IMG/VR virus record: IMGVR_UViG_3300048837_002364
Coordinates: 1-43,343 of that record
Direction: 5' to 3' (one strand)
Origin: a virus
DNA: 43,343 nucleotides
Shown here: positions 22,488 to 42,362 of the stretch, one piece after another
How positions within the stretch are numbered: position 1 is the stretch's first letter
How the letters are laid out: the number at the start of each line of letters is the position of its first letter
The notes under the pieces: model-generated
Database searches by the model: none
Told to the model about the DNA's origin: nothing
The model's input: the letters and a program-made list of their open reading frames with translations, nothing else
Program-made: the position numbers and the translations under genes

Positions 22488-24148
22488 GTGTATCCGCTAT
22501 ACGCACGTGTGACATCGGTTAATCCATTCTTTCCGCTGGTGTCCGCTGCGGCCAGGTCTTTGGCGGTACGTGCGCGCTGCTCCATGCTGTCCTGCAATGC
22601 CTGCGCCTGCGCAGCCTGCGCCCGCTGCTGGCGTATCAATGCCACCTTGTCGCCAGGCACAACCAGTTCCGGGTCGATGCCCAGCATGTCGGCGTAGGCG
22701 TCGGCCCAGCGGTCGGCATCGAACTTGTCAAGCACTTCCGGCTTGATGCCGGCGACTGCCCCAAGGTTGCCGACGAAGCGATCCACCGAGTTGGTTGCAA
22801 TGGCGCGCTGCGCCTGGGCAAGCATGGAAACAAACTCGACGTTCAGTTCCATGCCTTGCAGCTCCTGCGGCGGCGGCGGCACGATGTTGGCCTCGACCAT
22901 GCGGGCGAAGGTCATTTCGATCAGCGGGTCAAGGATTTCGTTGTGCATGCGCTCCAGCACCGGCCCCAGCATCAACAGCTTTTCCTCGTGACGCTCGGCC
23001 ACTTCGGTCGCGGTCATATTGCGGTTGTCACCGCCTGCCAGCATCAGGAACAGGTCGGCATAGAAGCTTGACTTGATGCGCTCGCGCACGTCGCGGATGT
23101 CTTCGAGCAGATAGGACAGATTGAGGTTGACTTCCCATGCCGTGCGAATGCCGCCAGTAGGCGAAGCTGAATCGACATAGGTCACGCCGCCAGGCAGTTG
23201 ATCAACGCCCCGGTTCTGCATGCTTGTCGGTGCCTGCAATGGCGGCTTGGTCTGGTAGTCGATGCCCTGCGCCTTGCGCAATTGCTCGTGCTGCAATTGC
23301 TTGATGTCGCCCAAGGCTTCCATCGCCGGGCTGTTTCCGTAGATGTCGCCGCCAGAGGTCATCCAGCGCGGACACAATGCCGGGAATGTCTTGAAGCCAG
23401 ACTCGCGCAGAAACTTGTCTTCATTGCCGCCCGCCTCGATGTAGACGGACTGATACGCCATGTTCTGCGCGTCACGCTTCGACGCATCGCGCGCCTTGCG
23501 AGGCTCGATGGCCTGAAGTACCGGAATCCAACTATCGAGCTGGTTGCGATCGTGCATGGCCTGTACCGTGCTGCTGCACTTGTCGCGCCCGAACTGCTCG
23601 ACCATCTGGCCGACTGTCATTTCGTATTCGCGGAAAATGGTATTGACCCGGCCACGGTGATCGGCGGCAAGGCAGAACTCGCCGGTCGTGATTTGATAGT
23701 GGTGAATGACGTTATCGAAGTCTGGCAGCACGATGCTGGATGCCGTACCGAACGCGCCCAATTCCTCGTACATCGAATGCAGCGAGCGATAGGTGTTCGA
23801 CTTTGCGAAGATCATCTGCATGATGCGGGTGACATCGGCCAGCCACGCCTTGACCGCCGCCGATTCGTCAAGCCCTGGATCGGCAGTCGTGAGGCGAAAC
23901 CAAGGCCGCGCCGGGCTGGTCATGCCTGCCATCATCCCTGCCGCAAGCACACTCAGCGCCCGCGTGCCAGTCGAGTCATAAATGTTGTTGTGTCGCTTGT
24001 CGCCCTTGTTGCGGTCAGACGTAAAGAACCGCCCGGCACGCGGGAGCAGATAAGTGCTGATCTCCTGCCAGTGCGCGTCCCAACTTGCCCGCTCGTTCTT
24101 GAGCGATGACGAGCGCGAGCGAACTTTCTGCTGCTTTGTTTGCTCCAT
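22484..24148 (-). CDS. portal (head-to-tail connector) protein
   Basis: A 554-aa protein of the podovirus head-tail connector family: the N-terminal helix MEQTKQQKVRSRSSSLKNERASWDAHWQEISTYLLPR region, an NNIYDSTGTRALSVLAAGMM stretch near 55-75, and a long C-terminal helical barrel. Twelve copies would form the ring through which DNA is packed. Earlier GTG (24151) is possible; ATG 24148 overlaps the upstream stop (TGATG). Confidence 0.9.
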   Translation of the reverse strand: MEQTKQQKVRSRSSSLKNERASWDAHWQEISTYLLPRAGRFFTSDRNKGDKRHNNIYDSTGTRALSVLAAGMMAGMTSPARPWFRLTTADPGLDESAAVKAWLADVTRIMQMIFAKSNTYRSLHSMYEELGAFGTASSIVLPDFDNVIHHYQITTGEFCLAADHRGRVNTIFREYEMTVGQMVEQFGRDKCSSTVQAMHDRNQLDSWIPVLQAIEPRKARDASKRDAQNMAYQSVYIEAGGNEDKFLRESGFKTFPALCPRWMTSGGDIYGNSPAMEALGDIKQLQHEQLRKAQGIDYQTKPPLQAPTSMQNRGVDQLPGGVTYVDSASPTGGIRTAWEVNLNLSYLLEDIRDVRERIKSSFYADLFLMLAGGDNRNMTATEVAERHEEKLLMLGPVLERMHNEILDPLIEMTFARMVEANIVPPPPQELQGMELNVEFVSMLAQAQRAIATNSVDRFVGNLGAVAGIKPEVLDKFDADRWADAYADMLGIDPELVVPGDKVALIRQQRAQAAQAQALQDSMEQRARTAKDLAAADTSGKNGLTDVTRAYSGYT

Positions 24149-24522
24149 CACATCCCCAGCAGGGTTGACTTGCCGAGAACCATGTCTTCCTTCTTCACCC
24201 CGGCGGGGCCGGTCAGCATGGTCCCTGACACCCCGCCACGCCCGGCAGATGAAGCCGCGTCCAGCATGGAACGTGTATCGGGGCGCTTCTGGTTGGCCGC
24301 GTTGAACTTCTGGTCGGCAGCCTTGGCCTGCGCGGCATAGTCGGCAGCCTGCGCGGCTGATTGCTGCTCGTAGGCCTTGAGTTGGGCGTCGGCATCGGCC
24401 TGGGCTTGAGCATTGGCCTCGCGCTGCGCGTCAATCGCCGCATCCGCCTGTTTCTTGCTGGTGTATGCGCTGTATCCGGCCACGACTGCTGTCGTGACAG
24501 CGGCGACGATTGCGAAACTCAT
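24148..24522 (-). CDS. small Ala/Gln-rich phage protein
   Basis: A 124-aa protein: N-terminal hydrophobic helix (about 3-19, AIVAAVTTAVVAGYSAY), then a long Ala/Gln/Asp coiled-coil-like helix (25-75) and a glycine-rich end. The design recalls small gp14-like membrane-active or head-tail proteins. Overlaps by four bases with both neighbours indicate tight coupling with the portal gene. Function unproven. Confidence 0.6.
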   Translation of the reverse strand: MSFAIVAAVTTAVVAGYSAYTSKKQADAAIDAQREANAQAQADADAQLKAYEQQSAAQAADYAAQAKAADQKFNAANQKRPDTRSMLDAASSAGRGGVSGTMLTGPAGVKKEDMVLGKSTLLGM

Positions 24523-24947
24523 GTCAAAGCCCCCTGTGTTACATTGCCCAGCGCCGGGTTGCGCGACTGCAACCTGTCGGCCTCGGTCGTCATGGCTTCC
24601 TCAATGGCGGAAATATCGGTCAGTTCAGTCGGGATGATCGTTGTCCACCACGTCTCAGCGTGTGTTACACCGGCCCGCTTCGCCCCAGCCTTGGCCGGCA
24701 GCACATGGAACCCGGTCAGCCGGCGCGGCCCCTCGTCGGTCGTCACGGTGATGTCGCCATACAGCACGCAGATGTTGTCCATCTCAGTCAGTGCGCCAGT
24801 CAGCGCCACGCCGGCAGGAATGAAAATGGTGCGGGCGTACATGCCGCCATGAACCAGGTGCGTGGTAGACAGGTCAACCTGTGGAAACAGCGCCAACTCG
24901 CGCTCAAGCGCGCGAACCGCATCAATTGGAATGACGGATATGTCCAT
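24519..24947 (-). CDS. hypothetical cupin-like phage protein
   Basis: A 142-aa protein starting MDISVIPIDAVRALE, with a beta-rich middle (YARTIFIPAGVALTGAL, ICVLYGDITVTTDEG) that looks like a small cupin barrel. It is a known companion of portal genes in this phage group, with unknown function. ATG 24947 is seven bases after the -10-like element of promoter copy 4, so it would be at the 5' end of the mRNA; ATG 24953 is the alternative. No ribosome binding site is present. Confidence 0.65.
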   Translation of the reverse strand: MDISVIPIDAVRALERELALFPQVDLSTTHLVHGGMYARTIFIPAGVALTGALTEMDNICVLYGDITVTTDEGPRRLTGFHVLPAKAGAKRAGVTHAETWWTTIIPTELTDISAIEEAMTTEADRLQSRNPALGNVTQGALT

Positions 24948-24953
24948 GTGCAT

Positions 24954-24987
24954 AATCTATGCGTGGCCGCTTGTGGTACGCGCACCC
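24954..24987 (-). promoter_or_regulatory. late promoter-like motif, copy 4
   Basis: GGGTGCGCGTACC on the minus strand, 13 bases, then CATAGATT. It is the first promoter-like element of the late region, directly upstream of the cupin-like gene and portal. Confidence 0.65.
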
Positions 24988-25004
24988 GCTGCTACACTGA
25001 CGGC

Positions 25005-25157
25005 ATGGGATTCACGCTCGAAATACTAAGGGAAATAGTCTGGAGGCTACGCAGGCCGACATGGCGAAAGACTTGGGCTTGGCTCTCCTGCGGCAGCGGC
25101 ATGCGCTTGATCGTACTGGTCGGCTCGGTCGCCTATCTGTTGTTGGCGTGGCTATAG
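25005..25157 (+). CDS. possible 50-aa membrane peptide, opposite strand
   Basis: An ORF starting MGFTLEILREIVWRLRRP at ATG 25005 encodes a basic amphipathic N-terminus and one membrane helix (MRLIVLVGSVAYLLLAWL). It runs against the surrounding genes in the only sizeable gap of the late region and overlaps the end of terminase by 25 bases. TACACT at 24992 with TTGTGG 16 bases upstream could be a promoter. There is no good ribosome binding site, so the call is tentative. Confidence 0.3.
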   Translation: MGFTLEILREIVWRLRRPTWRKTWAWLSCGSGMRLIVLVGSVAYLLLAWL

Positions 25158-27673
25158 GGGTCGTAATCTCTCGATTTACTGGTGTTTCGGTAGGCATTGA
25201 GCGGGTTGCGCTTGGCCACCGGGAAAGCAAACGTCAGCACCAGCGCGTCGGCTTTGTCGGGTGAACGCCCGAGCTTGTCCTTGATGATGCCCTTGTCCAC
25301 GATCCTGAACTTGTCTCCCTGGTAGACGAACGTGGTCGCGCACAGTTCTTCCTTCAGTTCCTTGTCGTCAGGCAATGCCCCGCCTGCTTTCACCCACGCA
25401 GCCATCTCGAAGTACATCTCGCTGCGCTTGTTGAAATAGCGGTAGTCGGACGCCCGCCCGCCGAACTGCACGCCCACCACGTCATGCCCGAGCCTGCGCA
25501 TGGCGTCTATCACGCCCGCCCCATAGCCCCCGGTTTCGTCAACGAAGAACGCCTCGGCCTGGCTGTCCTTCTGGTCGCGGATGAACTGGTCTGCCAGCAG
25601 CATCGTGTCTGGAATGCGCAGAGTGCGGATGGGGAACGCCTGGCGCCCCTGCCGCTTGGCGATGGCGCTCGAATCATCGCCCTGCCGTGCCACGTCTCCG
25701 CCCAGCACGACAGGCTCGTTTTGGATTTGCTCAAGCCGGTAATGCCGGGCCATCGCCGCGTCAACGTCATCCGGGCCAAGTAGGGAATTGAAGCCGGTCG
25801 GCGGGAACAGGCCGAGGATGGTCGCCATCACCCAAGGGTTGTCGCGGCCATGGGTGCGGATCATCTCGCGGGCGTGCTCGACGCTGACCCGTGGCGTGCG
25901 CTTGGGGTCGTCCGGGTCGGCGGTGATGGTGATGATCTCCCACGCCTCGCCGGCCTTCGTGCAAGACTCGTACAGCAAGCCGCTTGTGCTGGTCGGGTTG
26001 CCGGCCTGGATGATCGCGGCGTCCCGAGGATTTCCGGTGAATATCTGCGCCGCCGCGCGTCCGACCGATACCGGCATTTCGCCCGTCTCGTCAAGCAAGA
26101 CGAACGGGAATTGACTATGCAGGCCGGACAATGCCCGGCCTATCGCCTCGGCGTTGGCGTCCTTGGCGAACGATCTTGCCGACAGGAACCATGTTTCCGG
26201 GTGTTCGTTGGCGTAGATCTTTTCCTTGGTCCAGGTGAACGCAGCTTTCAGGAACGCGCTGCGCTGCTGCCACTTGGACATCTCAGCCCACAGGTTGTCT
26301 TTCAGGTTGTCGGCGGTGATCGACAGCGCCGCGCCCTTTGGGTGCTCGCCCTTGGCCGCAAAGCAGGCCAGCCGATGCCAGCCCATCCACGCCAGAGTCG
26401 CGGAATTGTGCGTGACGATGAAATCGTTGGCGAGGTAACAGGCCAGCGGGTGCGCAACCTGTATGCACATCGCCTCGCCGTCACCAATACGCTCTATTTT
26501 TTCAATCCAGCGCGTCATGTACCGGCTCTGCGGAGCGGCCCAGCGGTCAGCCTTTCGCTTGAGCAGGAACGGGCAGAACGGCAGAGACAGCGTGACGCGG
26601 TAGACGGTCAGGCACTCAACCATGCCACCATCTTTGCCATTGTACTTACCTCGCTTTGTGCGAATCGCCATCGCTTTACCGCCAAGCGACCGCACCAGCC
26701 ACGCCACATCCTCGGCCAAGCCCTTTGACGTGACATCAAAAGAAATACTGCGATCAGACGCTATCGTCCCGTCTGTATCCAACAATCCGGCAAGAACATC
26801 CTTTCGCTGCTGAATCGACGCCCGCATATACTGCTGGGGGACGCGGCGCTCATGGCTTGGTATGTTGTTTACCCTATCCAAACGTAACCCAGACGAAAGA
26901 CCGTGAACCGTAGCGGCTCTGCCGCCATCACGCCGAGTTATCAGGTATCCGCGACGTACAACTTCAGCGTCTATCCCTTCGTCCTGCCAGGAAACGCGAG
27001 CGCCGCGCTGCCCCCTGCATCCGTCACCAAGCCACGCTCCCAACACATAAGGATCACAAGCCAAGTCGGCCTCAGGGTATTCAATCGCTCCCTGTTGCGG
27101 TATTTCAAACTGCCGCCTAGTACGACCATCGTTGCTGTCATTGCGAGCCATAATCTCAATCAGGCTCAACGTTGACCAGCCATCTTCTGGTGTTCTGTAG
27201 TGGCCTTGCGCCACAGCCAAACGCTCTTTGTGCTCTGTCCAATCAACGGATGCGCGCTGCTTGACGTGACGGCGCTCAGTCCTACCACGCACGCGCCACA
27301 GGTGTTCTGCACAGCAATCAGTAGAAGTGCCATCATCAAACGTCACGCGGTACAGAGGCAACGTGCCACGCCACGTCTGCGCAACAACGCGAGTTGGCGT
27401 GCCATCCAAAGCAAACACCATATCGCCAGGCACAATGTCACCCCATCGGCGCAAGCCGTCAGGCGTCTCAATCAACATATCGACAGGCTGCGCTTTCCCC
27501 GGCCCGGTACACGCCTTCATGCACAGACGCCGCGCCGGGTTATAGTCGCCGCCCAATTCGCGCATGGCGTCAACCTGCCACGGGTCAGGCGTTACGCCGA
27601 AGCAGTCAACGGCGAACTTTACCGGGTCGCGCCGCCATTCCTGGATGCGTAATCGGGCTTTCTCAACCGTCAT
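25133..27673 (-). CDS. terL: terminase large subunit, interrupted by an intein
   Basis: An 846-aa precursor of the DNA-packaging motor. The N-extein ends ACTGPGK (Walker A) at residue 60, and the C-extein starts at Ser424, so splicing restores GPGKS. Walker B is FPFVLLDETGE in the C-extein, and acidic nuclease residues appear in GGDVARQGDDSSAIA, FFVDETGG and DKADALVL. The spliced protein would be about 483 aa, a normal size for a podovirus terminase. It overlaps the small subunit gene by 11 bases. The protein is inactive as a motor until the intein leaves, because the insertion breaks the P-loop. Confidence 0.95.
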   Translation of the reverse strand: MTVEKARLRIQEWRRDPVKFAVDCFGVTPDPWQVDAMRELGGDYNPARRLCMKACTGPGKAQPVDMLIETPDGLRRWGDIVPGDMVFALDGTPTRVVAQTWRGTLPLYRVTFDDGTSTDCCAEHLWRVRGRTERRHVKQRASVDWTEHKERLAVAQGHYRTPEDGWSTLSLIEIMARNDSNDGRTRRQFEIPQQGAIEYPEADLACDPYVLGAWLGDGCRGQRGARVSWQDEGIDAEVVRRGYLITRRDGGRAATVHGLSSGLRLDRVNNIPSHERRVPQQYMRASIQQRKDVLAGLLDTDGTIASDRSISFDVTSKGLAEDVAWLVRSLGGKAMAIRTKRGKYNGKDGGMVECLTVYRVTLSLPFCPFLLKRKADRWAAPQSRYMTRWIEKIERIGDGEAMCIQVAHPLACYLANDFIVTHNSATLAWMGWHRLACFAAKGEHPKGAALSITADNLKDNLWAEMSKWQQRSAFLKAAFTWTKEKIYANEHPETWFLSARSFAKDANAEAIGRALSGLHSQFPFVLLDETGEMPVSVGRAAAQIFTGNPRDAAIIQAGNPTSTSGLLYESCTKAGEAWEIITITADPDDPKRTPRVSVEHAREMIRTHGRDNPWVMATILGLFPPTGFNSLLGPDDVDAAMARHYRLEQIQNEPVVLGGDVARQGDDSSAIAKRQGRQAFPIRTLRIPDTMLLADQFIRDQKDSQAEAFFVDETGGYGAGVIDAMRRLGHDVVGVQFGGRASDYRYFNKRSEMYFEMAAWVKAGGALPDDKELKEELCATTFVYQGDKFRIVDKGIIKDKLGRSPDKADALVLTFAFPVAKRNPLNAYRNTSKSRDYDPYSHANNR
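26405..27493 (-). other. class 3 intein with LAGLIDADG endonuclease
   Basis: The 363-residue intein spans precursor residues 61-423. It starts with Ala (AQPVDMLIETPDG), not Cys or Ser, and ends VTHN before Ser+1. The class 3 signature is present: Trp126 in block B (EHLWRV), Cys403 in block F (AMCIQV) and Thr421 in block G (VTHN). Two LAGLIDADG-type helices, VLGAWLGDG (210-218) and VLAGLLDTDG (293-302), indicate a homing endonuclease. Class 3 inteins splice through the block F cysteine. The endonuclease appears intact by motif. Confidence 0.92.
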
Positions 27674-28073
27674 GGTCGCCCGTAATCAGCGATTCGAGGC
27701 CGATCTTGCCGGAATGCTCGATCTTGTTGCGCTCGACGTACTTTTCTGGACGATGGCCCTTCAGCAGTATCTCCAGCATCCTGTCCGAGTATTCCTTGTA
27801 GATTGCCGTTATAACGCCCTGGTGGACGACAGGTTTGTCTATCCCATCAACCGCCCGCCTCCACGCTTCGCGCTCAAGCTTGTCAGCCGCTTCTTCCTCT
27901 GCGTCATCCCATCCCTCGGCGAATTTGGCGTCCTTCTCGCGCCACTCGTATGCCGTCCGTCGGCCAATGCCAGCGGCACGCGCTGCCTCGGACACGTTGC
28001 AGGTTTCGCGCAAAACCACCAGGAAGCTCTCGCGCGCGCGATCCGTGCGTGCTGTGCGGCGTGCTTTAACCAT
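27663..28073 (-). CDS. terS: terminase small subunit
   Basis: A 136-aa protein starting MVKARRTARTDRARESF. An N-terminal helix-turn-helix (about 18-40, NVSEAARAAGIGRRTAYEW) would recognise the packaging site; an acidic helical middle would form the ring. The C-terminal HRPEKYVERNKIEHSGKIG is a familiar ending of small terminases. ATG 28073 overlaps the upstream stop; the longer frame to 28109 is less likely. Confidence 0.85.
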   Translation of the reverse strand: MVKARRTARTDRARESFLVVLRETCNVSEAARAAGIGRRTAYEWREKDAKFAEGWDDAEEEAADKLEREAWRRAVDGIDKPVVHQGVITAIYKEYSDRMLEILLKGHRPEKYVERNKIEHSGKIGLESLITGDHDG

Positions 28074-28248
28074 AAGAATTCTCCTTGCGAAGCTGGGCCT
28101 CATACTCATCTCGAAGCTTTATGAACCTTGAGACGAACCAATCGTAGAATGCGCGCATTGATCCATGCTGCTTCATAGCGAAGCGCCGCGCGTAATCTGG
28201 CGCAATAATGACAAAGCCCCAAATAATCGACTTCGCGCCTTTTCCCAT
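28066..28248 (-). CDS. small hypothetical protein
   Basis: A 60-aa basic protein (MGKGAKSIIWGFVII...) with a helical, charged C-terminal half. Its end overlaps the small terminase start and its start is four bases from the upstream stop, so it is part of the operon. I recognise no family. Confidence 0.5.
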   Translation of the reverse strand: MGKGAKSIIWGFVIIAPDYARRFAMKQHGSMRAFYDWFVSRFIKLRDEYEAQLRKENSYG

Positions 28249-28252
28249 TTCA

Positions 28253-28483
28253 TTATCCCCTCATCACTTTCTTGAACGCCGCCGCAATCTGGCAGCGCCT
28301 TGTAGCCTTGCAGATACATGCCACCGTGCTTTTCGGTATTTCCATGATCTTGCAAATCTCCCCGTAACTTAATCCTTCATCACGCAGTCTCAGAACGTGC
28401 TCGATTTCCCTATCCGTGTATCGGGCATTATGATGGTCCTCTCCTATGCGCAGCCCGCGCTCGTTTACCGCAATCACGATCAT
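28253..28483 (-). CDS. helix-turn-helix protein
   Basis: A 76-aa protein. YTDREIEHVLRLRDEGLSYG and EICKIMEIPKSTVACICK (about 24-60) form a clear resolvase/sigma-like helix-turn-helix. The basic C-terminus suits DNA binding. ATG 28483 is preceded by AGTGGA; the open frame upstream to 28549 overlaps the previous gene. A regulator of late transcription would fit this place, but nothing proves it. Confidence 0.6.
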   Translation of the reverse strand: MIVIAVNERGLRIGEDHHNARYTDREIEHVLRLRDEGLSYGEICKIMEIPKSTVACICKATRRCQIAAAFKKVMRG

Positions 28484-28493
28484 GGTATTCCAC

Positions 28494-28694
28494 TTAGTCA
28501 CGGAACAGCTTGGGCCATCTTGATCGGACTTCCTCATGCGCCCGGTCAACAGCCTTGCGCCTGGCGAGTCTAGGGTCGAGCGCGGTCGGGTCGAGCGGGG
28601 TTTCTGCGGCCTCCTTCAGCAGCCTTGCCGCCGGCAGGGGAAGGGGGCTGTGAATCTCGTCGCCCGTGTTGATGGTCTTCTCGTCTTCGCTCAT
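28494..28694 (-). CDS. small hypothetical protein
   Basis: A 66-aa protein starting MSEDEKTINTGDEIHSPLP, with RLARRKAVDRAHEEVRSRWP in the second half. It is acidic at the start and basic at the end. It overlaps the Ref-like gene by four bases. Unknown function. Confidence 0.5.
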   Translation of the reverse strand: MSEDEKTINTGDEIHSPLPLPAARLLKEAAETPLDPTALDPRLARRKAVDRAHEEVRSRWPKLFRD

Positions 28695-28972
28695 GCCGCC
28701 AGCAGCCTCATCACGTTGGATAAAAGTTCCCGCTCAGTCACGCCATATACGGCCTCGAAGCGCCGCTTCCCCATGCCATGATAGCCTTCATCGCCGCGAT
28801 GGTGGTACGCGCACAGGCCAATGGCGTCGTAATGGCTGGACCGCTGCCCCATACCCTGCCCATCGCGCAGATGGTGGATTTCCGCCGGCGTGCCGGGTGT
28901 ACCGAGAACGGCGCAGAGGATGCAGCCCAGCTCTGCCACGGCGTTGAGGTGGCGCTTCTCGGCGCGGGTCAT
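28691..28972 (-). CDS. Ref-like (RecA-dependent) HNH nuclease
   Basis: A 93-aa protein with the compact zinc/HNH pattern GCILC (16-20), EIHHLRDG (31-38) and GLCAYHHRGDEGYHG (52-66). This matches the Ref family known from phage P1 and many prophages, nucleases that cut DNA at RecA-coated D-loops. Its place beside NinB fits a recombination module. The start overlaps NinB by four bases. Confidence 0.8.
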   Translation of the reverse strand: MTRAEKRHLNAVAELGCILCAVLGTPGTPAEIHHLRDGQGMGQRSSHYDAIGLCAYHHRGDEGYHGMGKRRFEAVYGVTERELLSNVMRLLAA

Positions 28973-29343
28973 GCCGCAATTTCCTCATCGGCCAACCATC
29001 GCGCCTTGCACACGGCCGCGCACCAGCGCACAGGCGGGCAGTTCAGGCCTTGGCTGCTCGGGTCGTCTCCAATGTGAAAGGCCATCGTTATCGCGTCTAT
29101 GCACTGGTCTTTGCTCAGGTCTAGGCTTGATCCGCCCAGCATGATAAACCCGGCGCGGCCTTCGCCCCGGTCGATGGCCGGCATCATCCGCCAGCCAAGG
29201 ATCGTGCCGCTGATCATGTGGCGCCAGTCGTCTTTCGAAAGCCGGTTGCCGTGCCAGTTGATCTGCGCGGCCAGGTCGCCACAGGCAGCGTTCAGGATCT
29301 TCCTCTGCTGCTCGGTCAGTGCTTCGCGCCAAGGTTCGCTCAT
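28969..29343 (-). CDS. ninB: NinB-like recombination mediator
   Basis: A 124-aa protein of the NinB (lambda Orf) family, which helps load recombination proteins on SSB-coated DNA. Matching stretches are LNAACGDLAAQINWHGNRLS (17-36), DDWRHMISGTILG, and the C-terminal PVRWCAAVCKARWLADEE. The size is close to that of lambda NinB. Confidence 0.75.
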   Translation of the reverse strand: MSEPWREALTEQQRKILNAACGDLAAQINWHGNRLSKDDWRHMISGTILGWRMMPAIDRGEGRAGFIMLGGSSLDLSKDQCIDAITMAFHIGDDPSSQGLNCPPVRWCAAVCKARWLADEEIAA

Positions 29344-29459
29344 TCAAACCCCCTGCGCGCCGGCTTGGCGTCCAGCGCGGCCCGCAGCAGCGCAGCTTCC
29401 GTTTCGGCCTTCATGGCGCGCTGCAGCAGCGCAATGTCCATCTGCAGTTCAACGTGCAT
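29340..29459 (-). CDS. short helical protein
   Basis: A 39-aa ORF starting MHVELQMDIALLQRAMK, ending in a four-base overlap with NinB. It is one amphipathic helix. Although short, the tight operon spacing on both sides supports translation. The longer frame to 29522 would overlap the upstream gene. Confidence 0.4.
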   Translation of the reverse strand: MHVELQMDIALLQRAMKAETEAALLRAALDAKPARRGFE

Positions 29460-29463
29460 GGTT

Positions 29464-29652
29464 TCATCCGCGCTTGGTGGCGCGCTCCCAGATGGTGTCC
29501 AGCGTCTCAATCTGCTTCGCACTGGGCCTGCGCCCTTCGGCCAGTTGCCGCTGCAGCGAGTCCACGAAGCCGAGTTCCCAGTCGCTCAGGCGCTCGCTGC
29601 GCTTCTCGCAGTCCTCCAGCAGGGTCACGTACTCGTCAGCCCACGTAGTCAT
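29464..29652 (-). CDS. small hypothetical protein
   Basis: A 62-aa helical protein starting MTTWADEYVTLLEDCEKRSE, with LSDWELGFVDSLQRQLAEG and KQIETLDTIWERATKRG. Such short helical proteins with a late Trp are common in phage replication operons but have no assigned function. The start lies inside the end of the previous gene (17-base overlap). Confidence 0.55.
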   Translation of the reverse strand: MTTWADEYVTLLEDCEKRSERLSDWELGFVDSLQRQLAEGRRPSAKQIETLDTIWERATKRG

Positions 29653-29863
29653 CTTCGTCCTCCGGCCATCCGTGGCACAAGCATTCGCAGGGGTCTTCCG
29701 GGCCATCGCCGCCGTAGCGAATCCAGGCGCACATGCTGCCGTCGTGGTGCGCGCAGGCGCAACCGTAGGTGCCTCGCGGCCCTTCGGCGTCCGTGGCTTC
29801 GTCCACCGGCCGCCCAACTGACGGTTCGAGCGGACCCACAACGGCCCGGCTACTTTGTCCCAT
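29636..29863 (-). CDS. small Cys/His-rich protein at a cassette boundary
   Basis: A 75-aa acidic protein with several Cys and His (CACAHHDGSMC, CECLCHG), likely metal binding. ATG 29863 comes directly after GTTGAAC, the R' box of the RNA ligase cassette attC, and its ribosome binding site GGAGG is inside that attC. Insertion of the cassette has therefore built or replaced this gene's translation start region. Confidence 0.55.
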   Translation of the reverse strand: MGQSSRAVVGPLEPSVGRPVDEATDAEGPRGTYGCACAHHDGSMCAWIRYGGDGPEDPCECLCHGWPEDEDDYVG

Positions 29864-29913
29864 GTTCAACCTCCTGCGCGGGCCGTTGCGGTCCGCTCAA
29901 CCTAGCGTTATGC
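29864..29913 (-). other. attC site of the RNA ligase cassette
   Basis: On the minus strand R'' GCATAAC (29913-29907) and R' GTTGAAC (29870-29864) bound a 50-bp palindromic segment with GCGGACC/GGCCCGC arms. The R'' box is the exact complement of the cassette's 5' core GTTATGC at 30569-30563. The ligase stop codon lies inside R''. Confidence 0.8.
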
Positions 29914-30537
29914 CCCAAAGTCCCGGCATTTGATTTTCGTAATGATCCGGTGTCCGTTGCGCGTCTTGAGTTCGGTTTTTGGCCTCGCCACAATTCCCTC
30001 GGCCTGGAACTCTCCCCACGTCGAAACAATCCCGGTCTTTGCCGCCGCAATAGCATCGTGCAGCGTGCCTTCTCCGATGATCGGCACAACATCAAGGCCC
30101 ATCTTCCCGGCTATGTCCTCAACGTCTGCGCGTTGCAGCCACCAGTCGCCAACCTTCACGTCGAAAAGCACAAAGTCTTGGTCTTGCCGGTAGTTGCCGC
30201 CGCCTTTCTGAATCTTCGCGCCGTAGCCCTCGCCGTAGAGGCAGGCGTCACAACCAAACGTCTCTTGCATCTTCTCGGCCAAAGGCAAAAACCTTTCATT
30301 CAGCCGCGCCACAAGTTGCGCCGGTATCTGCGCCGCGTCAGTTTTCCCGCCAAAGGTAATGCCACCGCCCTGCAACATCACGCGGATATTGGTGCCGTCA
30401 ACCTTCTCTGTAAAAACCCAAGTGTTCCCGGCCAAAAATTCAAATTCAGGCAGTGTCCATTGGCCTTCCAACAGCGTCTTGCCGTTGCGCTCCATGTCGC
30501 GCTTGAAAACAGTTTGTATCTTGTGGTACTCGTTCAT
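29908..30537 (-). CDS. RNA ligase (Rnl2-like), carried as an integron cassette
   Basis: A 209-aa nucleotidyltransferase. Lys45 in TEKVDGTN is the adenylated lysine of the KxDG motif. FQAEGIVARPK and the ending ITKIKCRDFG match motifs IV and V. The short size fits the minimal Rnl2-like ligases, which could repair tRNA or other RNA cut by host defences; that role is inference. The gene lies between two attC sites and points the same way as the surrounding phage operon. ATG 30537 has a GGAGTG ribosome binding site. Confidence 0.85.
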   Translation of the reverse strand: MNEYHKIQTVFKRDMERNGKTLLEGQWTLPEFEFLAGNTWVFTEKVDGTNIRVMLQGGGITFGGKTDAAQIPAQLVARLNERFLPLAEKMQETFGCDACLYGEGYGAKIQKGGGNYRQDQDFVLFDVKVGDWWLQRADVEDIAGKMGLDVVPIIGEGTLHDAIAAAKTGIVSTWGEFQAEGIVARPKTELKTRNGHRIITKIKCRDFGA

Positions 30538-30562
30538 TTTTCACTCCATAGTTTGGTTTGTG

Positions 30563-30624
30563 GCATAACACGGCGGCCAACAGCGACCGCGCTGAAGCGC
30601 GGCGCGTTACCTTATGCGTTAGAA
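30563..30624 (-). other. attC site upstream of the RNA ligase cassette
   Basis: On the minus strand R'' TTCTAAC (30624-30618) and R' GTTATGC (30569-30563) bound a 62-bp palindrome. Over about 57 bases it is over 90 percent identical to the attC at 39990-40050. It is preceded by a further core-like GTTAGGC at 30648-30642, only 24 bases away, so the cassette that owned this attC has lost its gene. Confidence 0.8.
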
Positions 30625-30655: not shown

Positions 30656-31045
30656 TCACGCCATCCCCGATTGAATGCTGACGGTGCGGCGCACCGCACC
30701 TTGCCCGCCTTGATTTGGGATCGGGTTTCCTGGAACGTGGATGTACCGACCTTTGCCGCCTTTCGGCCTGGCCGGCTTTTCGTTTTCGGCGCGGCGTGCA
30801 TGTTCGCGCACCGATGCAGCCGGCGCGGTAGTCTCGACCAGTGCCGAATACGTGCAATCACGGCTTGGTCCGTTACGTTCGACCTCGCCGAGCCGCAGCA
30901 TCGCCAGCACAAGACGGGTTACTGCCTCGGTGCGCATTCCTAGCGCACTGGCGATCCTCGCCGACGAAGCGCGGTTTCCGCGGTTCAGGTAGTCGAGGAT
31001 GCGCTGACGGTTCTGTGCGGCAGCTTCGAGTTTGCCCATGTTCAT
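30656..31045 (-). CDS. winged-helix DNA-binding protein
   Basis: A 129-aa protein. QNRQRILDYLNRGNRASSARIASALGMRTEAVTRLVLAMLRLGEVER (about 11-57) is a clear winged helix-turn-helix, followed by a basic, probably disordered tail. ATGA overlap with the gene upstream supports start 31045. It is the last phage gene before the captured cassette. Confidence 0.65.
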   Translation of the reverse strand: MNMGKLEAAAQNRQRILDYLNRGNRASSARIASALGMRTEAVTRLVLAMLRLGEVERNGPSRDCTYSALVETTAPAASVREHARRAENEKPARPKGGKGRYIHVPGNPIPNQGGQGAVRRTVSIQSGMA

Positions 31046-31236
31046 ATTTGTCCCTTTCTGATTTCTTCAGCGATGGCGGCGAATGTCTCTTGTGCTGCTT
31101 CAATGTCGCGCCGCGCTGCCGCCTTGGCCGTTTCATATTCGCCAAGCTCGCGCAGGTTGTAGCGTTCAGCGACGGCCTCGAAGTCGGCGACGAATTGCTT
31201 TGAAACTGTTACCCGATTACCAGCGGACATATTCAT
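31042..31236 (-). CDS. small helical protein
   Basis: A 64-aa protein starting MNMSAGNRVTVSKQFVADF and ending AAIAEEIRKGQI, rich in Ala and Glu and probably fully helical. It overlaps both neighbours. Function unknown. Confidence 0.5.
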   Translation of the reverse strand: MNMSAGNRVTVSKQFVADFEAVAERYNLRELGEYETAKAAARRDIEAAQETFAAIAEEIRKGQI

Positions 31237-32170
31237 CCCCCAACTGATAGAAGTTCATGCTTTCCCGGTTGAACATCAGATTGCAGTTGCCGATCCAGCC
31301 ATCCCCGTTGCGCTGCGCTTCGACCGTCAGGCTGGCATCCGGCTCGTCGCCGCGCTTCTCTGGATTCTTTTCCTTTTCCTTGTTCCTCCAGACGGACAGG
31401 ACGTTTTCCGCCATATCCGCAATCTCGCTTGCGCCCTTGATGTCGTGGAGCTTGGCCGGCTTTGAGTCGTCGTTTCCCTTCCTGGCGTGGGCGACAAGGT
31501 GAATATGGAGCGGGTAGGAATGGGCGACCACCTGAACCTGATCGACAAACTGCTTCTGCCCGGCGTAGTCGTCAGGGGCCATGCCGCACTTCATCAGCGA
31601 ATCAATCAGGATATGGTCAACGTGGATATGCTCGGCGACGTAGCGGCACAGTGCGATAACTTCCCTGGCCGACAAACTGCCCTGGGTGTCGTAAAGCCAC
31701 ACCCGTTCGGTGACGTAGCGCATGAAGGCGTTAAGGTCTTCGGCGGTCGGCTGCGTCGTCTCGGCGTGTTGGTAAAGCATTCGCTCCAAAACACGCTCCG
31801 GCCTGAACTCAGGCGAGAAGATGAAAATGCGCTTGCCGTGTCGGATGGCTTCGTTGAACGCCTGGGAAATCAGAAGACTCTTTCCGTGGCCCTTGTATCC
31901 GGCCCAAATCGTCAGCTCATTGCGGCGAAACTCGAACTTGCCGCGAAGGTGGCTGAACGGCAGGCGGGTTGCGTGGGTATCGCCTTCCGCCCTGCCGACG
32001 ATCAAATCCCGCACCGCCAGCTTGTAATCCGTGGCCGGTCTGACGTTGTGGCTGACCTTGCCATTCATGTACTGCGTCAAGTCAAGGTCGCGCAGCAGGT
32101 TGGGGGACTCCATGATCCTGCCAGCCAGTTTGTCGAGGGTGCTGGCCCCCGCCTGATCCCTAGTCTGCAT
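31217..32170 (-). CDS. replicative helicase, DnaB/Twinkle-like
   Basis: A 317-aa RecA-fold ATPase. Walker A is WAGYKGHGKSLL (about 88-99), the Walker B region is HVDHILIDSLMKCG, and HIHLVAHARKG is motif H4-like. The C-terminal GDGWIGNCNLMFNRES is typical of phage DnaB-like helicases. It lacks an N-terminal primase, which the neighbouring zinc-domain gene may supply. ATG 32170 overlaps the end of that gene. Confidence 0.85.
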   Translation of the reverse strand: MQTRDQAGASTLDKLAGRIMESPNLLRDLDLTQYMNGKVSHNVRPATDYKLAVRDLIVGRAEGDTHATRLPFSHLRGKFEFRRNELTIWAGYKGHGKSLLISQAFNEAIRHGKRIFIFSPEFRPERVLERMLYQHAETTQPTAEDLNAFMRYVTERVWLYDTQGSLSAREVIALCRYVAEHIHVDHILIDSLMKCGMAPDDYAGQKQFVDQVQVVAHSYPLHIHLVAHARKGNDDSKPAKLHDIKGASEIADMAENVLSVWRNKEKEKNPEKRGDEPDASLTVEAQRNGDGWIGNCNLMFNRESMNFYQLGDEYVRW

Positions 32171-32588
32171 GGCAAATCCTCGCTGCATCCTGAAGGCGCT
32201 CAACAGCAAGCATCAACCGTTTGCGGTTCACGTCATCAAGCGGCTCACCGTTCGCCACTTGAGCACCAGACAAGGCAACAATCAGGCTTTCGGTCGAAAC
32301 CGCTGCCAGCACATCACGCGGATTGAATGGCATCCGCTCCGGCTTGTTCGGCTGGTACGGGTCTGCTTCGCGCTCCGGGTAGATGTCGGAGAACGTCATC
32401 CCGACCGCACCGAGGATCGAATCAACCGAGCACCCGGCGAAGCAATGAATCAGCACCCGGCCATCGTCCTTTTCCGTGACGGTCATGGACGGGTTCTTGT
32501 CTTCATGGGCAGGACAACAGGCGATCCAGCTTTCGCGCCCGGTGCGCTTGACCTTCGTGAGCTGGGCGAGGAACTTGTCTGCGATCAT
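32160..32588 (-). CDS. primase zinc-binding (CHC2-like) protein
   Basis: A 142-aa protein. WIACCPAHEDKNPSMTV and VLIHCFAGCSVDSIL (about 20-60) form the CHC2 zinc domain that recognises template DNA in primases. No TOPRIM or polymerase domain follows, so it is either a loader for host primase or a split primase. The ATG overlaps the organiser stop by four bases. Confidence 0.75.
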   Translation of the reverse strand: MIADKFLAQLTKVKRTGRESWIACCPAHEDKNPSMTVTEKDDGRVLIHCFAGCSVDSILGAVGMTFSDIYPEREADPYQPNKPERMPFNPRDVLAAVSTESLIVALSGAQVANGEPLDDVNRKRLMLAVERLQDAARICHAD

Positions 32589-34903: not shown

Positions 34904-35137
34904 TCACGCCGCCTTCCGGGGAAGGCCATCACGCTTGTTCGGGTAAATGTCTGGACGAATCTCGTGAGGCGTTACGCGCCAGCCCAGCGACAGGCAAACG
35001 GGGATGACGTATTCAGACTTCAGTTCTGCGCCATCGTCGTCCCATATCTTGACGGCCTGCCGCGTCACGTTGCACACCTTCGCCAGCGCGGCGCGGTTGC
35101 CGTCGAAGTAACCATTAAGGAGTTGCGTAATGTTCAT
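34904..35137 (-). CDS. Cro/YdaS-like repressor
   Basis: A 77-aa protein. MNITQLLNGYFDGNRAALAK then VCNVTRQAVKIWDDDG (about 17-36) is a Cro/YdaS-type helix-turn-helix. The C-terminus is basic and short, so there is no dimerisation or cleavage domain as in lambda CI. ATG 35137 is six bases after a -10 hexamer, so the mRNA is probably leaderless. Its own promoter overlaps two operators, which suggests autoregulation. Confidence 0.75.
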   Translation of the reverse strand: MNITQLLNGYFDGNRAALAKVCNVTRQAVKIWDDDGAELKSEYVIPVCLSLGWRVTPHEIRPDIYPNKRDGLPRKAA

Positions 35138-35143
35138 GGCGAC

Positions 35144-35183
35144 AGTTAAGCACGCTTTGCCAGCAAAGTCAATACCGCTTAAC
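35144..35183 (-). promoter_or_regulatory. repressor promoter with operators O1 and O2
   Basis: On the minus strand TTGACT (35172-35167) and TTAACT (35149-35144) are 17 bases apart. O1 (35145-35160, GTTAAG-4-CTTTGC) covers the -10 and O2 (35168-35183, GTTAAG-4-ATTGAC on the minus strand) covers the -35. Confidence 0.75.
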
Positions 35184-35218
35184 ATATTTTCGGCAAAAAT
35201 CCTTTTTTTGCTTATTTG

Positions 35219-39206: not shown

Positions 39207-39520
39207 ATTTGAAATACCGAAGACTCGGCTACCAATACGCGCATGACCTGCCGGAACAATGGAGCGAGGAAGACGACATTGAAGAACTGGCAGAAGCCGC
39301 AGCGGAGGACTATTGGCGCAACTGGCGCAACCACGATGGCTGGGAAGCAAGGTGGCCGCTGACGTTCGAGATTCTGCTGCCGAACGGAGAGGTGCTCGGC
39401 ATGTGCAGCGTATCCCTTGATATAAAGCCGGTGTTCGTCGTGACGACACATAACGACGAAGCTCACCGGAGGGACGCCGCAGGCGGCCCGTCCGGTGGAG
39501 CGGATTGTTCGGCGGCGTAA
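39203..39520 (+). CDS. phage protein with an attC-encoded tail
   Basis: A 105-aa protein starting MNLKYRRLGYQYAHD. Residues 1-82 form an acidic helix and a beta-rich domain (LTFEILLPNGEVLGMCSVSLD). From residue 83 on, the frame reads through an attC site (39448-39513), so the last 23 residues are cassette-site sequence. The ATG overlaps the micro-ORF stop. It links the phage early operon to the cassette run. Confidence 0.55.
   Translation: MNLKYRRLGYQYAHDLPEQWSEEDDIEELAEAAAEDYWRNWRNHDGWEARWPLTFEILLPNGEVLGMCSVSLDIKPVFVVTTHNDEAHRRDAAGGPSGGADCSAA
39448..39513 (+). other. attC site, first of the right-hand run
   Basis: R'' ACATAAC (39448-39454) and R' GTTCGGC (39507-39513) bound a 66-bp palindrome with GCTCACCGGA/TCCGGTGGAGC arms. 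The owner cassette's expected start GTTATGT is not found upstream, so its 5' end was lost or replaced by phage sequence. Confidence 0.75.
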
Positions 39521-39534
39521 CTACGGAGGGCAAC

Positions 39535-40002
39535 ATGACTGAACAGACAGTGTGGAAGGCAAGCGTTCGCGGGGAAACGTGCCACTTCGGGCACGAAGGC
39601 ACGGCGCGGGCGTGGTGCGGCCCAAATGGTACGGTTGAGAAGTTGGTTATCAGGATGCCGACCGAAGTGCCAAAGGGCGCCGTGGAACGCGAACTGGCGA
39701 CCGCTCGCGGCCTGTGCAGCAGCGTTTGCGATGACGACGCGCTGAACGAGGCCGACGCCGAGGTGATGAAGCTGCGGCAGATTGAGGAGGCGGCGGAACT
39801 TGCCTGCGGCCTGCTGTGGATGGTGGAAGAACGGAGCGAGAAGGTGCGGACGGCATACCATGCGCTGCGCGATGCGCTCGGCGGCTCGGGAAGCAAGGGA
39901 CTCGGCAAGGCCATCAAGCGGGCCATCGATGCCGGCCACGAAGCCGACCATCCGCCCGGCGCGGACTGGTGGGCAGGCAAGAAAGAGACGCCGAACGCAT
40001 AG
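39535..40002 (+). CDS. hypothetical cassette protein
   Basis: A 155-aa protein with an N-terminal beta-rich part containing WKASVRGETCHFGHEG and a helical C-terminal half (EVMKLRQIEEAAELACGLL). The ribosome binding site is GGAGGG, just inside the cassette, whose 5' core is GTTCGGC (39507) and whose R'' is the exact complement GCCGAAC (39990). No function recognised; the final residues overlap the attC. Confidence 0.6.
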   Translation: MTEQTVWKASVRGETCHFGHEGTARAWCGPNGTVEKLVIRMPTEVPKGAVERELATARGLCSSVCDDDALNEADAEVMKLRQIEEAAELACGLLWMVEERSEKVRTAYHALRDALGGSGSKGLGKAIKRAIDAGHEADHPPGADWWAGKKETPNA

Positions 40003-40050
40003 GTAACGCGCCGCGCTTCAGCGCGGTCGCTGTTGATCACCGTGTTAGGC
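39990..40050 (+). other. attC site
   Basis: R'' GCCGAAC (39990-39996) and R' GTTAGGC (40044-40050) bound a 61-bp palindrome. Its central part is identical over 33 bases to the attC at 30563-30624 on the other strand. Confidence 0.85.
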
Positions 40051-40072: not shown

Positions 40073-40300
40073 ATGAAACACACGGCAATAAGTTTGGGGT
40101 GGGATGGGGTTGTGGCTCAACTTGTGCATTCGGATAAGGATGACAAGAACAGCAAACAGCACAAGCTGATTTTATTTCAGCAGCAGATATTAGAAGAACA
40201 CGTTTGCGCACCAGCGCAATCGGTTGAAGTGTTCGGAGCCACGGCAATCTTGAAACTGCGTGACGCGCTGCTTGAAGCATACCCGCTTGAGAGTGCCTAA
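40073..40300 (+). CDS. small hypothetical cassette protein
   Basis: A 75-aa protein starting MKHTAISLGWDGVVAQLVHS, with a C-terminal helix (ATAILKLRDALLEAYP). The cassette starts at GTTAGGC (40044) and ends at GCCTAAC (40295), an exact complement. AGGAGA lies six bases before the ATG, and the stop is inside R''. Function unknown. Confidence 0.6.
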   Translation: MKHTAISLGWDGVVAQLVHSDKDDKNSKQHKLILFQQQILEEHVCAPAQSVEVFGATAILKLRDALLEAYPLESA

Positions 40301-40357
40301 CGCCAAGGTAAGCGGCGGCGGTGCTTTCCCGCCGTCCGCTTGACCGACGTGTTATGT
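40295..40357 (+). other. attC site
   Basis: R'' GCCTAAC (40295-40301) and R' GTTATGT (40351-40357) bound a 63-bp palindrome with AGCGG/CCGCT arms. It shares TTGACCGAC before R' with the attC at 41030-41092. Confidence 0.85.
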
Positions 40358-40869: not shown

Positions 40870-41035
40870 GCGCGGCGGCGCGGGGCGCGGCCAAGGGCGC
40901 AAGCCCTTGGCAAAGACGGGCGAGTTGATGAAGGCCCGCCCGATCAGGGTGACCGACGAGGAGTGGGAGAAGTGCAAGCGTCTCGGCGGCGCTGCCTGGG
41001 TGCGATCGCGCATCAAGGCGGCTCGTGAAACATAA
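40850..41035 (+). CDS. cassette ORF 3, basic DNA-binding-like protein
   Basis: A 61-aa basic protein. GGAGRGQGRKPLAKTGELMK is the recurrent GRGQGRKP opening of small phage and plasmid proteins, followed by PIRVTDEEWEKCKRLGGAAW, which looks like a ribbon-helix-helix or AT-hook-like DNA-binding unit. It may bind the palindrome at the cassette promoter, but this is inference. The stop overlaps R'' of the attC. Confidence 0.55.
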   Translation: MADISTKRGGAGRGQGRKPLAKTGELMKARPIRVTDEEWEKCKRLGGAAWVRSRIKAARET

Positions 41036-41092
41036 CGCCGAAGGTAACCCGCCTGCCGCTTGCGGCAGGTCGGGTTGACCGACGGGTTGGGC
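41030..41092 (+). other. attC site
   Basis: R'' ACATAAC (41030-41036) and R' GTTGGGC (41086-41092) bound a 63-bp palindrome with a GCCTGCCGC/GCGGCAGG hairpin. R'' is the exact complement of the cassette start GTTATGT at 40351. Confidence 0.85.
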
Positions 41093-41113: not shown

Positions 41114-41497
41114 ATGACCATTGAAACGAGAACCACAGGAGATTTGCTGTACCTGCTGCAACGGCAGTACCCCCACGGCGTGACGACGTTCGCGCCTTGC
41201 CCGATCTGTGGCACTGGCTCACGCGGCGGCGGGTACTGCGCGAAGTGCATTTGTTCTGAACTAACTCGGCGCGGAGTGCATGCGGCACTGGTCAGCGGGC
41301 TGCATTTGATGCTGGAGCAGCGCCGCGACTTGAACGGCCGTATTGCAAACACGACAGAGGCGATACAGGAACAGGCCGACGAGATGCGGCAATGGGCAAC
41401 GACGGTGGAAGACACGCCGCCCAACGCCATAGCTCAGGGTCGCGAGCCGCGCAGCGGCGAAGAGTCCCCTGGAGCGCCGGGTTGTGCCACGGCTTGA
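41114..41497 (+). CDS. cassette protein with zinc ribbon and attC-encoded tail
   Basis: A 127-aa protein. PCPICGTGSRGGGYCAKCIC (29-48) is a four-Cys zinc ribbon, followed by a long helix. From about residue 102 the frame reads through the attC (41419-41487), so the last 25 residues are attC-encoded. The cassette starts at GTTGGGC (41086) and its R'' is the exact complement GCCCAAC (41419). Function unknown. Confidence 0.6.
   Translation: MTIETRTTGDLLYLLQRQYPHGVTTFAPCPICGTGSRGGGYCAKCICSELTRRGVHAALVSGLHLMLEQRRDLNGRIANTTEAIQEQADEMRQWATTVEDTPPNAIAQGREPRSGEESPGAPGCATA
41419..41487 (+). other. attC site
   Basis: R'' GCCCAAC (41419-41425) and R' GTTGTGC (41481-41487) bound a 69-bp palindrome with GCTCAGGG/CCCTGGAGC arms. 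Confidence 0.75.
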
Positions 41498-41509: not shown

Positions 41510-41974
41510 ATGCAGCAATGCGAACGACTGAGAAAGTACAACCGCTGGAGACGCGGCGACAAGCGCCTGAAGATGCCAGACCCGAAAGAACTCGGGGAAC
41601 TGATCGACGGCGTAGCCGACCGGCTGGAAGTGCTGGAGCGCGAACACACGGAGTTTTTCGACCGCTGGCACGACGAACGCCGGAGGCGCGAAGCACTGGA
41701 GCGAGCAATCATCCAGCACCAAGCGGACGTGCGGTACGCAACACAGGGGGCCGCGCTCTTCGGCCTCGCCTGGAATGGAGGGTTAGACGTGGACGAATTT
41801 GAGCGGTGGTGGGAAAACCAAGCATATTTTGAAGAAGCTCAGGTATGGCTTGCTCGAGAGGCATGGATTGCAGCACTGAACCGGGCAATCGAAGTGATGC
41901 CGGGCGGCAGCGTGACTGACCCGCAATGGGTATGCGACAAGCTGCGAGAATTGGGTGGCACACGAGGCGGCTAA
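41510..41974 (+). CDS. hypothetical cassette protein
   Basis: A 154-aa helical protein starting MQQCERLRKYNRWRRGDKRL, with a strongly charged coiled coil (about 37-65) and a Trp-rich middle (ERWWENQAYFEEAQVWLARE). GGAGA precedes the ATG. The ATA-free GC-rich codon use resembles the phage more than the left-hand methyltransferase does. Its cassette start (GTTGTGC) does not complement its R'' (GGCTAAC), unlike the neighbours, which suggests an exchange or mutation. Confidence 0.55.
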   Translation: MQQCERLRKYNRWRRGDKRLKMPDPKELGELIDGVADRLEVLEREHTEFFDRWHDERRRREALERAIIQHQADVRYATQGAALFGLAWNGGLDVDEFERWWENQAYFEEAQVWLAREAWIAALNRAIEVMPGGSVTDPQWVCDKLRELGGTRGG

Positions 41975-42027
41975 CGCCCGCAATGAGCGGCCCGCTTCAG
42001 CGGGTCCGCTCGATTAAAGAGTTGGGC
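41969..42027 (+). other. attC site
   Basis: R'' GGCTAAC (41969-41975) and R' GTTGGGC (42021-42027) bound a 59-bp palindrome with GAGCGGCCCGC/GCGGGTCCGCTC arms. The upstream stop TAA lies inside R''. Confidence 0.85.
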
Positions 42028-42040
42028 AACGGAGACAGCC

Positions 42041-42247
42041 ATGAGCAGGATTGACTACAGAACCAAGGAAGGCCAGGAAGAGGAAGTGCTGGCGCAGGTT
42101 TTGAAGCACGGCGGGTTTTCTGTGTTTTGGGTGACGGAGAACCAGAAACGGGCGCACGCAGCGGAGCGGCTGCAAGATCGCGGCGCGATCATCCGCGACG
42201 GCGGCGCATACCCGTGGTGCGCGTACAAGGTGCCCAACTTAAATTAG
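42041..42247 (+). CDS. small hypothetical protein of the last cassette
   Basis: A 68-aa protein starting MSRIDYRTKEGQEEEVLAQV, with a compact alpha/beta pattern and VFWVTENQKRAHAAERLQ. GGAGA is eight bases before the ATG. The cassette starts at GTTGGGC (42021) and reaches R'' GCCCAAC (42232), after which the attC is missing. Confidence 0.6.
   Translation: MSRIDYRTKEGQEEEVLAQVLKHGGFSVFWVTENQKRAHAAERLQDRGAIIRDGGAYPWCAYKVPNLN
42232..42247 (+). other. truncated attC, R'' box only
   Basis: GCCCAAC (42232-42238) complements the cassette's own 5' core at 42021. The following sequence is AT-rich and has no palindrome or R' box, so the attC is cut off here. From 42248 to 42326 I see nothing assignable. 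Confidence 0.6.
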
Positions 42248-42326
42248 ACAGCATAAAAATTACCCCTATGGGCTGGCCATGTCAATCTACTGATATCCAG
42301 TCCATTGTTCTCTATGCACTATCATC

Positions 42327-42355
42327 TTGCCTTACGTTTTAGGGCAGCCTAAACT
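42327..42355. promoter_or_regulatory. candidate intI promoter and attI-like site
   Basis: TTGCCT (42327-42332) and TAAACT (42350-42355) are 17 bases apart and could drive intI. Between them GTTTTAGGGC (42336-42345) and GCCTAAAC form an inverted repeat. Its minus-strand reading GCCCTAAAAC, then GTAAGGC, resembles the end of the class 1 integron attI site as I recall it, where the last box is GTTAGGC. The spacing is shorter, so an attI assignment is tentative. Confidence 0.4.
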
Positions 42356-42362
42356 TTTACGG

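Follow-up and report, generated by a model that had tools for sequence, protein, structure and literature searches.

An RNA ligase gene in a podoviral replication operon as probable cargo of an integron-type cassette

The replication operon of the phage described here contains a gene for an RNA ligase with a candidate integron recombination site (attC) on either side, which raises the question of what the mobile unit is and how it reached an ordinary phage operon. The window, i.e., the whole stretch of DNA analysed, is a metagenomic virus contig of 43,343 bases from IMG/VR. The record contains terminase and head–tail connector genes, recognised with Pfam and PHROG, and the host of the ligase block is probably a podovirus, with the block placed in its replication operon. 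The operon runs in the order helicase, small gene, helix-turn-helix (HTH) gene, ligase, gene for a 75-aa protein, small genes and NinB. The DnaB-like helicase (31217–32209, minus strand) matches Pfam DnaB_C; the neighbour 5′ of the insert (30656–31045, minus strand) features a weak MarR/AsnC-type HTH, and the neighbour 3′ of the insert (28969–29343, minus strand) matches Pfam NinB. The block is codirectional with these genes and is located about 9 kb from the main attC run, and the coordinates agree with the original prediction of a minus-strand insert away from the main run and in line with its own operon.

Several other features of the window were recorded. An intein with a LAGLIDADG-type homing endonuclease interrupts the large terminase gene (25133–27673). 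An HNH-endonuclease-like open frame (9606–10151, plus strand) lies, as judged by eye, on the strand opposite to a continuous 2246-aa frame (5550–12290). A YdaS-like protein of the Cro/toxin type (34904–35215, minus strand) scored 27.8 bits, just under the Pfam cut-off of 30; its gene is part of the divergent early region, and the only Phage_integrase-family gene of this phage is intI.

The ligase gene (29908–30537, minus strand) encodes an Rnl2-like protein of 209 aa, consisting of the nucleotidyltransferase domain only. The protein matched the Pfam RNA_ligase family (PF09414) with 73 bits against a cut-off of 27, and PHROG 548 was matched as well. The nucleotidyltransferase motifs are intact, namely KVDG (motif I, KxDG), EGIV (motif IV) and KIKC (motif V). 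T4 Rnl2 is the best match in the PDB both by sequence (1s68, E = 6e-5) and in a Foldseek search (2hvr, E = 1e-10) with the AlphaFold model of the protein (pLDDT 88), so that family, motifs and fold all agree with the Rnl2-like RNA ligase predicted originally. The Rnl2 C-terminal domain is absent, the open frame stopping after motif V. T4-kind phage ligases mend tRNAs cut by anticodon nucleases. By family resemblance, the ligase of the window would reseal nicks in RNA, plausibly in tRNAs cut by anticodon nucleases of the host. Such tRNAs are a candidate substrate only, for no kinase partner was recognised in the gene set inspected and the protein lacks the C-terminal domain of Rnl2.

The flanks of the ligase were assessed with a covariance model, R1, built from nine attC sites taken from the main run and from further viral contigs, with both ligase flanks left out. 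R1, a small purpose-built model whose E-values are approximate, covers one attC class only, as the sites of the published phage CALIN in TJE1 were not found by it. The loci compared below were reached with a handful of query genes and two attC search patterns, and the counts are thus no census. The upstream flank, t1 (30563–30624, minus strand), a near copy of the attC at 39990–40050, was matched by R1 (30624–30563, minus strand) with 40.7 bits and E = 3.6e-10. The downstream flank, t2 (29812–29913, minus strand), is a long attC whose loop contains a Shine–Dalgarno (SD) sequence and an ATG; it was matched (29909–29816, minus strand) with 20.9 bits and E = 6e-4, the lower score being due to the long loop. 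R1 also recovered further sites on which it had not been trained (a2 and a5 of the main run and the attC at 625–681), and scored the benchmark attC-aadA7 at E = 5e-16. A separate structural scan demanding the layout of extrahelical bases returned t2 and four main-run sites, with a mean of 0.6 matches in shuffled windows, and the folding of the t2 hairpin was better than that of all 200 shuffles (z = −4.07).

The core boxes GTTATGC (30569–30563) and GCATAAC (29913–29907) were found where they had been predicted, at the ends of the ligase segment. The left boxes are TTCTAAC (30624–30618) in t1 and the same GCATAAC (29913–29907) in t2, and the right box of t2 is at 29818–29812. According to R1 and folding, both sites have paired R and L boxes and two extrahelical bases. 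By these tests of sequence and structure t1 and t2 are attC sites, for which recombination is predicted, and the claim that the ligase lies between two attC is upheld by a model that excluded both. A CALIN is recognised by a pair of attC lying no more than a few kb from each other, with intI absent from that range; t1 and t2 are about 0.7 kb apart and intI is 12 kb off, which makes the pair a CALIN. Both sites recur elsewhere. The exact t1 core was found in 12 other viral contigs with a varying left flank, and three contigs (L182, L183 and L188) have the t1-type attC and the downstream methyltransferase in common, but not the upstream gene. The same attC as t2 occurs in L079, L080, L083, L087, L088 and L089.

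Which side of an attC belongs to the mobile unit was derived from polarity, calibrated with attC-aadA7 and 80 bacterial integron (intI) loci. R1 is directional: attC-aadA7 scored 56.3 bits with its bottom strand and 12.1 bits with its top strand, and 208 of 208 R1 matches in the 80 bacterial loci were on the strand that would be the bottom one in a canonical array. The strand matched by R1 is therefore the attC bottom strand. With genes called by ATG plus SD, 65 of 67 viral cassette genes are on the R1 strand versus 13 of 60 bacterial ones; genes on the opposite strand number two in viruses (both in record G029) and 47 in bacteria. The Fisher test of 65:2 versus 13:47 gives p = 5e-20, treating as independent cassettes that are not. 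Longest-ORF calling is noisier (56:26) than calling by ATG plus SD (65:2). Among pairs of viral contexts with a common attC and one common flank, the flank was the 3′ one in 15 cases and the 5′ one in none; the corresponding numbers for bacterial loci, in the same R1 orientation, are 15 and 3. The geometry of the unit, an attC plus a segment on one side, is thus the same in phages and bacteria.

Phage units consequently have the structure attC–gene, with the gene turned round within the unit and the attC at the 5′ end of the gene. In a canonical cassette the attC is 3′ of the gene and its bottom strand is opposite to the coding strand, an arrangement from which t1, t2 and 65 of the 67 viral cassettes depart. 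A canonical cassette reading of the ligase is not supported by the polarity and pair tests. Comovement of attC and gene holds for t2 and the 75-aa gene, while the ligase has different attC beside it in different relatives. An initial idea, in which the next cassette borrows a start codon from t2, was dropped after these tests, since an attC and the gene following it are one unit. No published report of a reversed cassette class was found.

Translation starts inside attC are frequent in the phage sites. In 22 of 47 long viral attC the loop contains an SD sequence and a start codon from which an open frame leaves via the right box and continues for at least 40 codons. No long viral attC has such a start in the opposite direction; the counts are 0 of 60 for short viral attC and 4 of 55 for long bacterial ones. 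The translated right arm yields recurring peptides, e.g., VGPLEPSVGR. In the window, the gene for the 75-aa cysteine-rich protein (29636–29863, minus strand), with relatives in L079–L085, takes its first 16 or so codons from the t2 hairpin and right box. Both its SD sequence AGGAGG (29875–29870) and its ATG (29863) lie in the loop of t2, with the right box 45 nt further on, and the frame traverses the box. The use of a ribosome binding site within the attC, as originally proposed, is borne out; the start at the R′ box is not.

The 75-aa gene had been regarded as the next phage gene. Instead, it is the first gene of a second cassette, and a single-cassette insert was rejected: homology to L079, L080 and L081 indicates two cassettes, the second starting at t2. 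This second cassette (29352–29907, minus strand) contains t2, the 75-aa gene, a gene for about 60 aa and a truncated third gene, and it is 88.8–91.8% identical to L079, L080 and L081 down to position 29351. Phage homology on the NinB side, seen with L039, begins at 29369. Judging from these two limits, the 3′ border is a non-attC junction (29351–29369) near NinB, which would have taken off the end of the second cassette. The 5′ border is the left box of t1, 32 bases past the stop codon of the HTH gene. By attC polarity, the crossovers are predicted to fall in the left boxes, at 30619/30618 and 29908/29907. Because of this polarity the ligase unit would be t1 with the ligase, rather than the stretch from GTTATGC to GCATAAC; left boxes and the pair test delimit the ligase cassette, comprising the t1 attC, a leader and the ligase, at 29908–30618 (minus strand). 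The insertion as a whole is therefore less precise than had been supposed, its 3′ edge being a truncated cassette.

A comparison with related phages lacking the cassette, as suggested along with the original prediction, was made at the level of gene order. The block is absent from L066, in which an HTH-like gene is followed directly by NinB, from L063, in which a small ORF precedes NinB, and from L065, with one short gene between; gene order alone was compared, the sequences being too diverged for base-exact alignment with the insert site. A search of viral contigs for relatives of the HTH gene found none. The proposal that cassettes enter more than one place of a phage genome without an attI is supported by the position of the block away from the main run and by other records with separate clusters: virus records G001, G026 and G029 have at least two separate attC clusters each. 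A single detected attC is present in G002, G004 and G021. The phage record G029 (L071, L196–L198) carries attC clusters at three places.

The viral relatives of the ligase number 36, and the four closest (L002–L005, 82–91% identity) have attC on one or both sides. DNA similarity to L002 covers 29905–30569, i.e., from the left box of t2 to the right box of t1. Ligases without attC are those of L006 (73%), L007 and MW202615 (74% at the DNA level), along with most of the more distant ones; an R1 search near the annotated RNA ligases of MW202615 and MW202524 gave no attC. Such homologues had been named beforehand as evidence against a cassette. They exist in part, and in the ligase tree, where the attC-flanked ligases cluster, L006 and MW202615 are placed beside or among them, so that the two seem to be related to the source gene and not to contradict the cassette. 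The pattern would fit a phage ligase turned cassette gene. Different contigs have different attC adjoining the ligase, so that ligase and attC appear to have been re-paired. When 399 genomes from the host order were searched, the ligase, run without a positive control, had no match and the 75-aa protein one weak match (E = 7e-4).

The main array is situated at the other end of the window. Its attC sites, all on the plus strand, are a1 (39448–39513, 62.1 bits with R1), a2 (39990–40050, 47.6 bits), a3 (40295–40357, 71.8 bits), a4 (41030–41092, 68.4 bits), a5 (41419–41487, 45.3 bits) and a6 (41969–42027, 60.0 bits), and a further attC (625–681, plus strand, 50.9 bits) follows the methyltransferase at the start of the window; a1, a3, a4 and a6 were in the training set of R1, whereas a2, a5 and the site at 625–681 were not. 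PADLOC recognised no defence family among the tested main-run cassette genes except the methyltransferase, and a repeat finder gave nothing informative on direct repeats. The array is joined to the attI of a Thiobacillus-type integron (42229–42362, minus strand, by homology to L093) exactly at the attI R box, followed by the integron integrase gene intI (42363–43343, plus strand; TIGR02249, 474 bits, cut-off 265). The region 42229–43343 is 96% identical to the attI–intI region of a Thiobacillus MAG (L093), the similarity beginning at the R box, and the distance from the attI motif to intI is about equal in the window, L093, L095 and L097. Junctions of the same geometry between array and intI occur in four other records (G031, G032, G040 and G045). 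Terminase was recognised in 10 of 25 attC-bearing virus records, and Phage_integrase-family genes in only 5 of the 25, each of which has an integron integrase at the end of its array. At the end of the phage array in G040 (C1:652–2397), an integron integrase (minus strand) lies beside a second tyrosine recombinase (plus strand). In L079, L080, L084, L085 and L088 (G036, G037, G041, G042 and G045), attC runs reach about 13 sites in the stretch read, and many of their genes encode DNA methyltransferases and small cysteine-rich proteins.

A second copy of the phage, L038, is 100% identical to the window where compared (23972–29463 and 1–1964), with an overlap of about 29.4 kb. Beyond window position 1 it contains the end of the cassette gene at 41896–41974, two attC, one other gene and the methyltransferase of 1–630; its cassette order differs there from that of the window, with the switch at a left box. 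No intI was found in the stretch of L038 seen beyond window position 1. From this comparison the phage map is circular or permuted, with the array spanning the window ends, and in L092 the array is continuous across them. In cassette content the two copies of this phage are not alike.

Phage genomes appear to have recombined with a host attI, and the window is perhaps an integrated prophage; alternatively, intI is carried by the phage. An ATG opens the window and a stop codon closes it, and proviruses trimmed by provirus callers begin and end at gene ends. The R-box junction, these window ends, the lack of intI in that part of L038 and the absence from the record of any Pfam Phage_integrase-family tyrosine recombinase other than intI together led us to a wider, tentative reading, which we consider possible but not the likelier case: beta-proteobacterial phages would keep a pool of their own with inverted genes and start-codon-bearing attC, and host IntI would both shuffle it and lysogenise the phage, inserting the whole genome at attI as a giant cassette. 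A search for the portal protein in 12 bacterial genomes with related intI, aimed at prophages and run without a positive control, gave no match.

The preferred explanation of the ligase locus is that the ligase is cargo of an integron-type cassette, accompanied by a truncated second cassette, in units reversed with respect to bacteria and inserted by IntI, and we hold this to be probably correct. Palindromes are common in phages, and the ribosome site and start codon within t2 suggest a role in expression, so the flanks might be ordinary phage hairpins, i.e., terminators or translation-control stems, that merely resemble attC. The core boxes, stem layout and both extrahelical bases fit attC, however; a model that had not seen the flanks finds t1 at a significance (4e-10) to be set beside that of attC-aadA7 (5e-16), and in other contigs the same sites join different genes, which makes ordinary hairpins highly improbable. 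A misassembly of phage and bacterial integron contigs would be in keeping with the metagenomic origin and with the meeting of array and Thiobacillus-type attI–intI at 42229, but we give it no more credit: phage backbone is present on both sides of the ligase locus, the approximately 7 bases common to both sides of the attI junction are too few for an assembler misjoin, and the four records named above have junctions of the same geometry. Somewhat less remote, yet still improbable, is a canonical cassette in which the ligase belongs to t2 on its 3′ side and the next gene borrows the t2 start codon. The overlap of the ligase stop codon with the left box of t2 is indeed as in canonical cassettes. 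Yet t2 with the same 75-aa gene is found behind different upstream genes, no viral pair has a common attC and upstream gene while lacking the common downstream side, and the extrahelical bases indicate the opposite polarity.

The main rival to insertion at a GTT core concerns the route. The block may have arrived by homologous or illegitimate exchange between attC-bearing phages, the attC being real cassette sites elsewhere but passengers here, with no integrase acting at this locus. This mosaicism would account for the second cassette being cut off near NinB without a core site; in its favour, too, t1 nearly duplicates a2 of this genome, phage genomes are mosaics, and many of them contain these units. 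Against it, the 5′ edge of the block is a left box, and single attC are found at unrelated places in G002, G004 and G021. We regard whole-block exchange as unlikely, though as a serious contender. The cassette explanation itself has to accommodate the 3′ edge of the block, which is no attC junction, the ligases at 73–74% identity without attC, an unstable pairing of ligase and attC, and the derivation of the data from metagenome contigs, with 2 of 67 viral cassettes (both in G029) canonical.

On the cassette explanation, the integron integrase would most likely come from the host and be of the Thiobacillus type, and it would place units in attC already present or at GTT cores of the phage genome. 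Since the gene faces away from the attC and often starts inside it, a unit has its own translation start, and it could be expressed from whichever phage operon receives it, without attI or Pc. The opposite gene orientation across related phages points to a cassette pool maintained by the phages themselves. Integrons are viewed as gene-capture devices of bacteria, whose cassettes are read out from attI. Should inverted, start-bearing cassettes able to lie in ordinary operons be carried by many phages, integron integrases would also serve the plasticity of phage genomes, and standard annotation, with the gene first and the attC last, would tie such attC to a gene that is not theirs. Methyltransferases and an RNA ligase, the cargo observed, are of the kind that helps a phage past host defence.

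Among known systems, T4 Rnl2 has the same nucleotidyltransferase motifs and fold as the phage ligase, which differs in its length of about 209 residues, without the Rnl2 C-terminal domain. The attC of cassettes in bacterial chromosomal integrons (Thiobacillus and relatives, L093–L172) have the same fold, one model finding both, and the unit is likewise an attC plus a segment on the same side; the difference is the inversion of the gene within the phage unit (13:47 in bacteria vs. 65:2 in viruses). Translation signals inside integron recombination sites are also known from ORF-11 of attI1 and short ORFs in attC, which act by reinitiation (review PMC8876359). There, translation of the short ORF terminates before ribosomes start again at the cassette gene, whereas in phage attC the frame runs from the start codon into the gene, giving an N-terminal extension.

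Integrons and CALINs of phages have been described (Qi 2023, PMC9892861), with Tetrasphaera phage TJE1, Pseudoalteromonas phage PH101 and MW202573 as examples, and 5 of 6 phage attC assayed in that study recombined with attI1. The likeness extends to attC-bounded genes, the lack of a phage intI and methyltransferase cassettes. The polarity of gene and attC is not discussed in the text of that paper as available; by R1, the published CALIN of MW202573 has reversed polarity. Insertion of cassettes outside the integron, at attG sites with a GTT core and without attI, is reported by Loot et al. 2024 (as relayed in PMC12901181 and PMC11389934), and GTT-core insertion of this kind would fit the ligase block, which differs, as far as those accounts go, in the phage operon as recipient, the reversed gene polarity and the truncated second cassette. 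Relative to the phage CALINs, the ligase cassette and the arrays at two places of one genome are new members.
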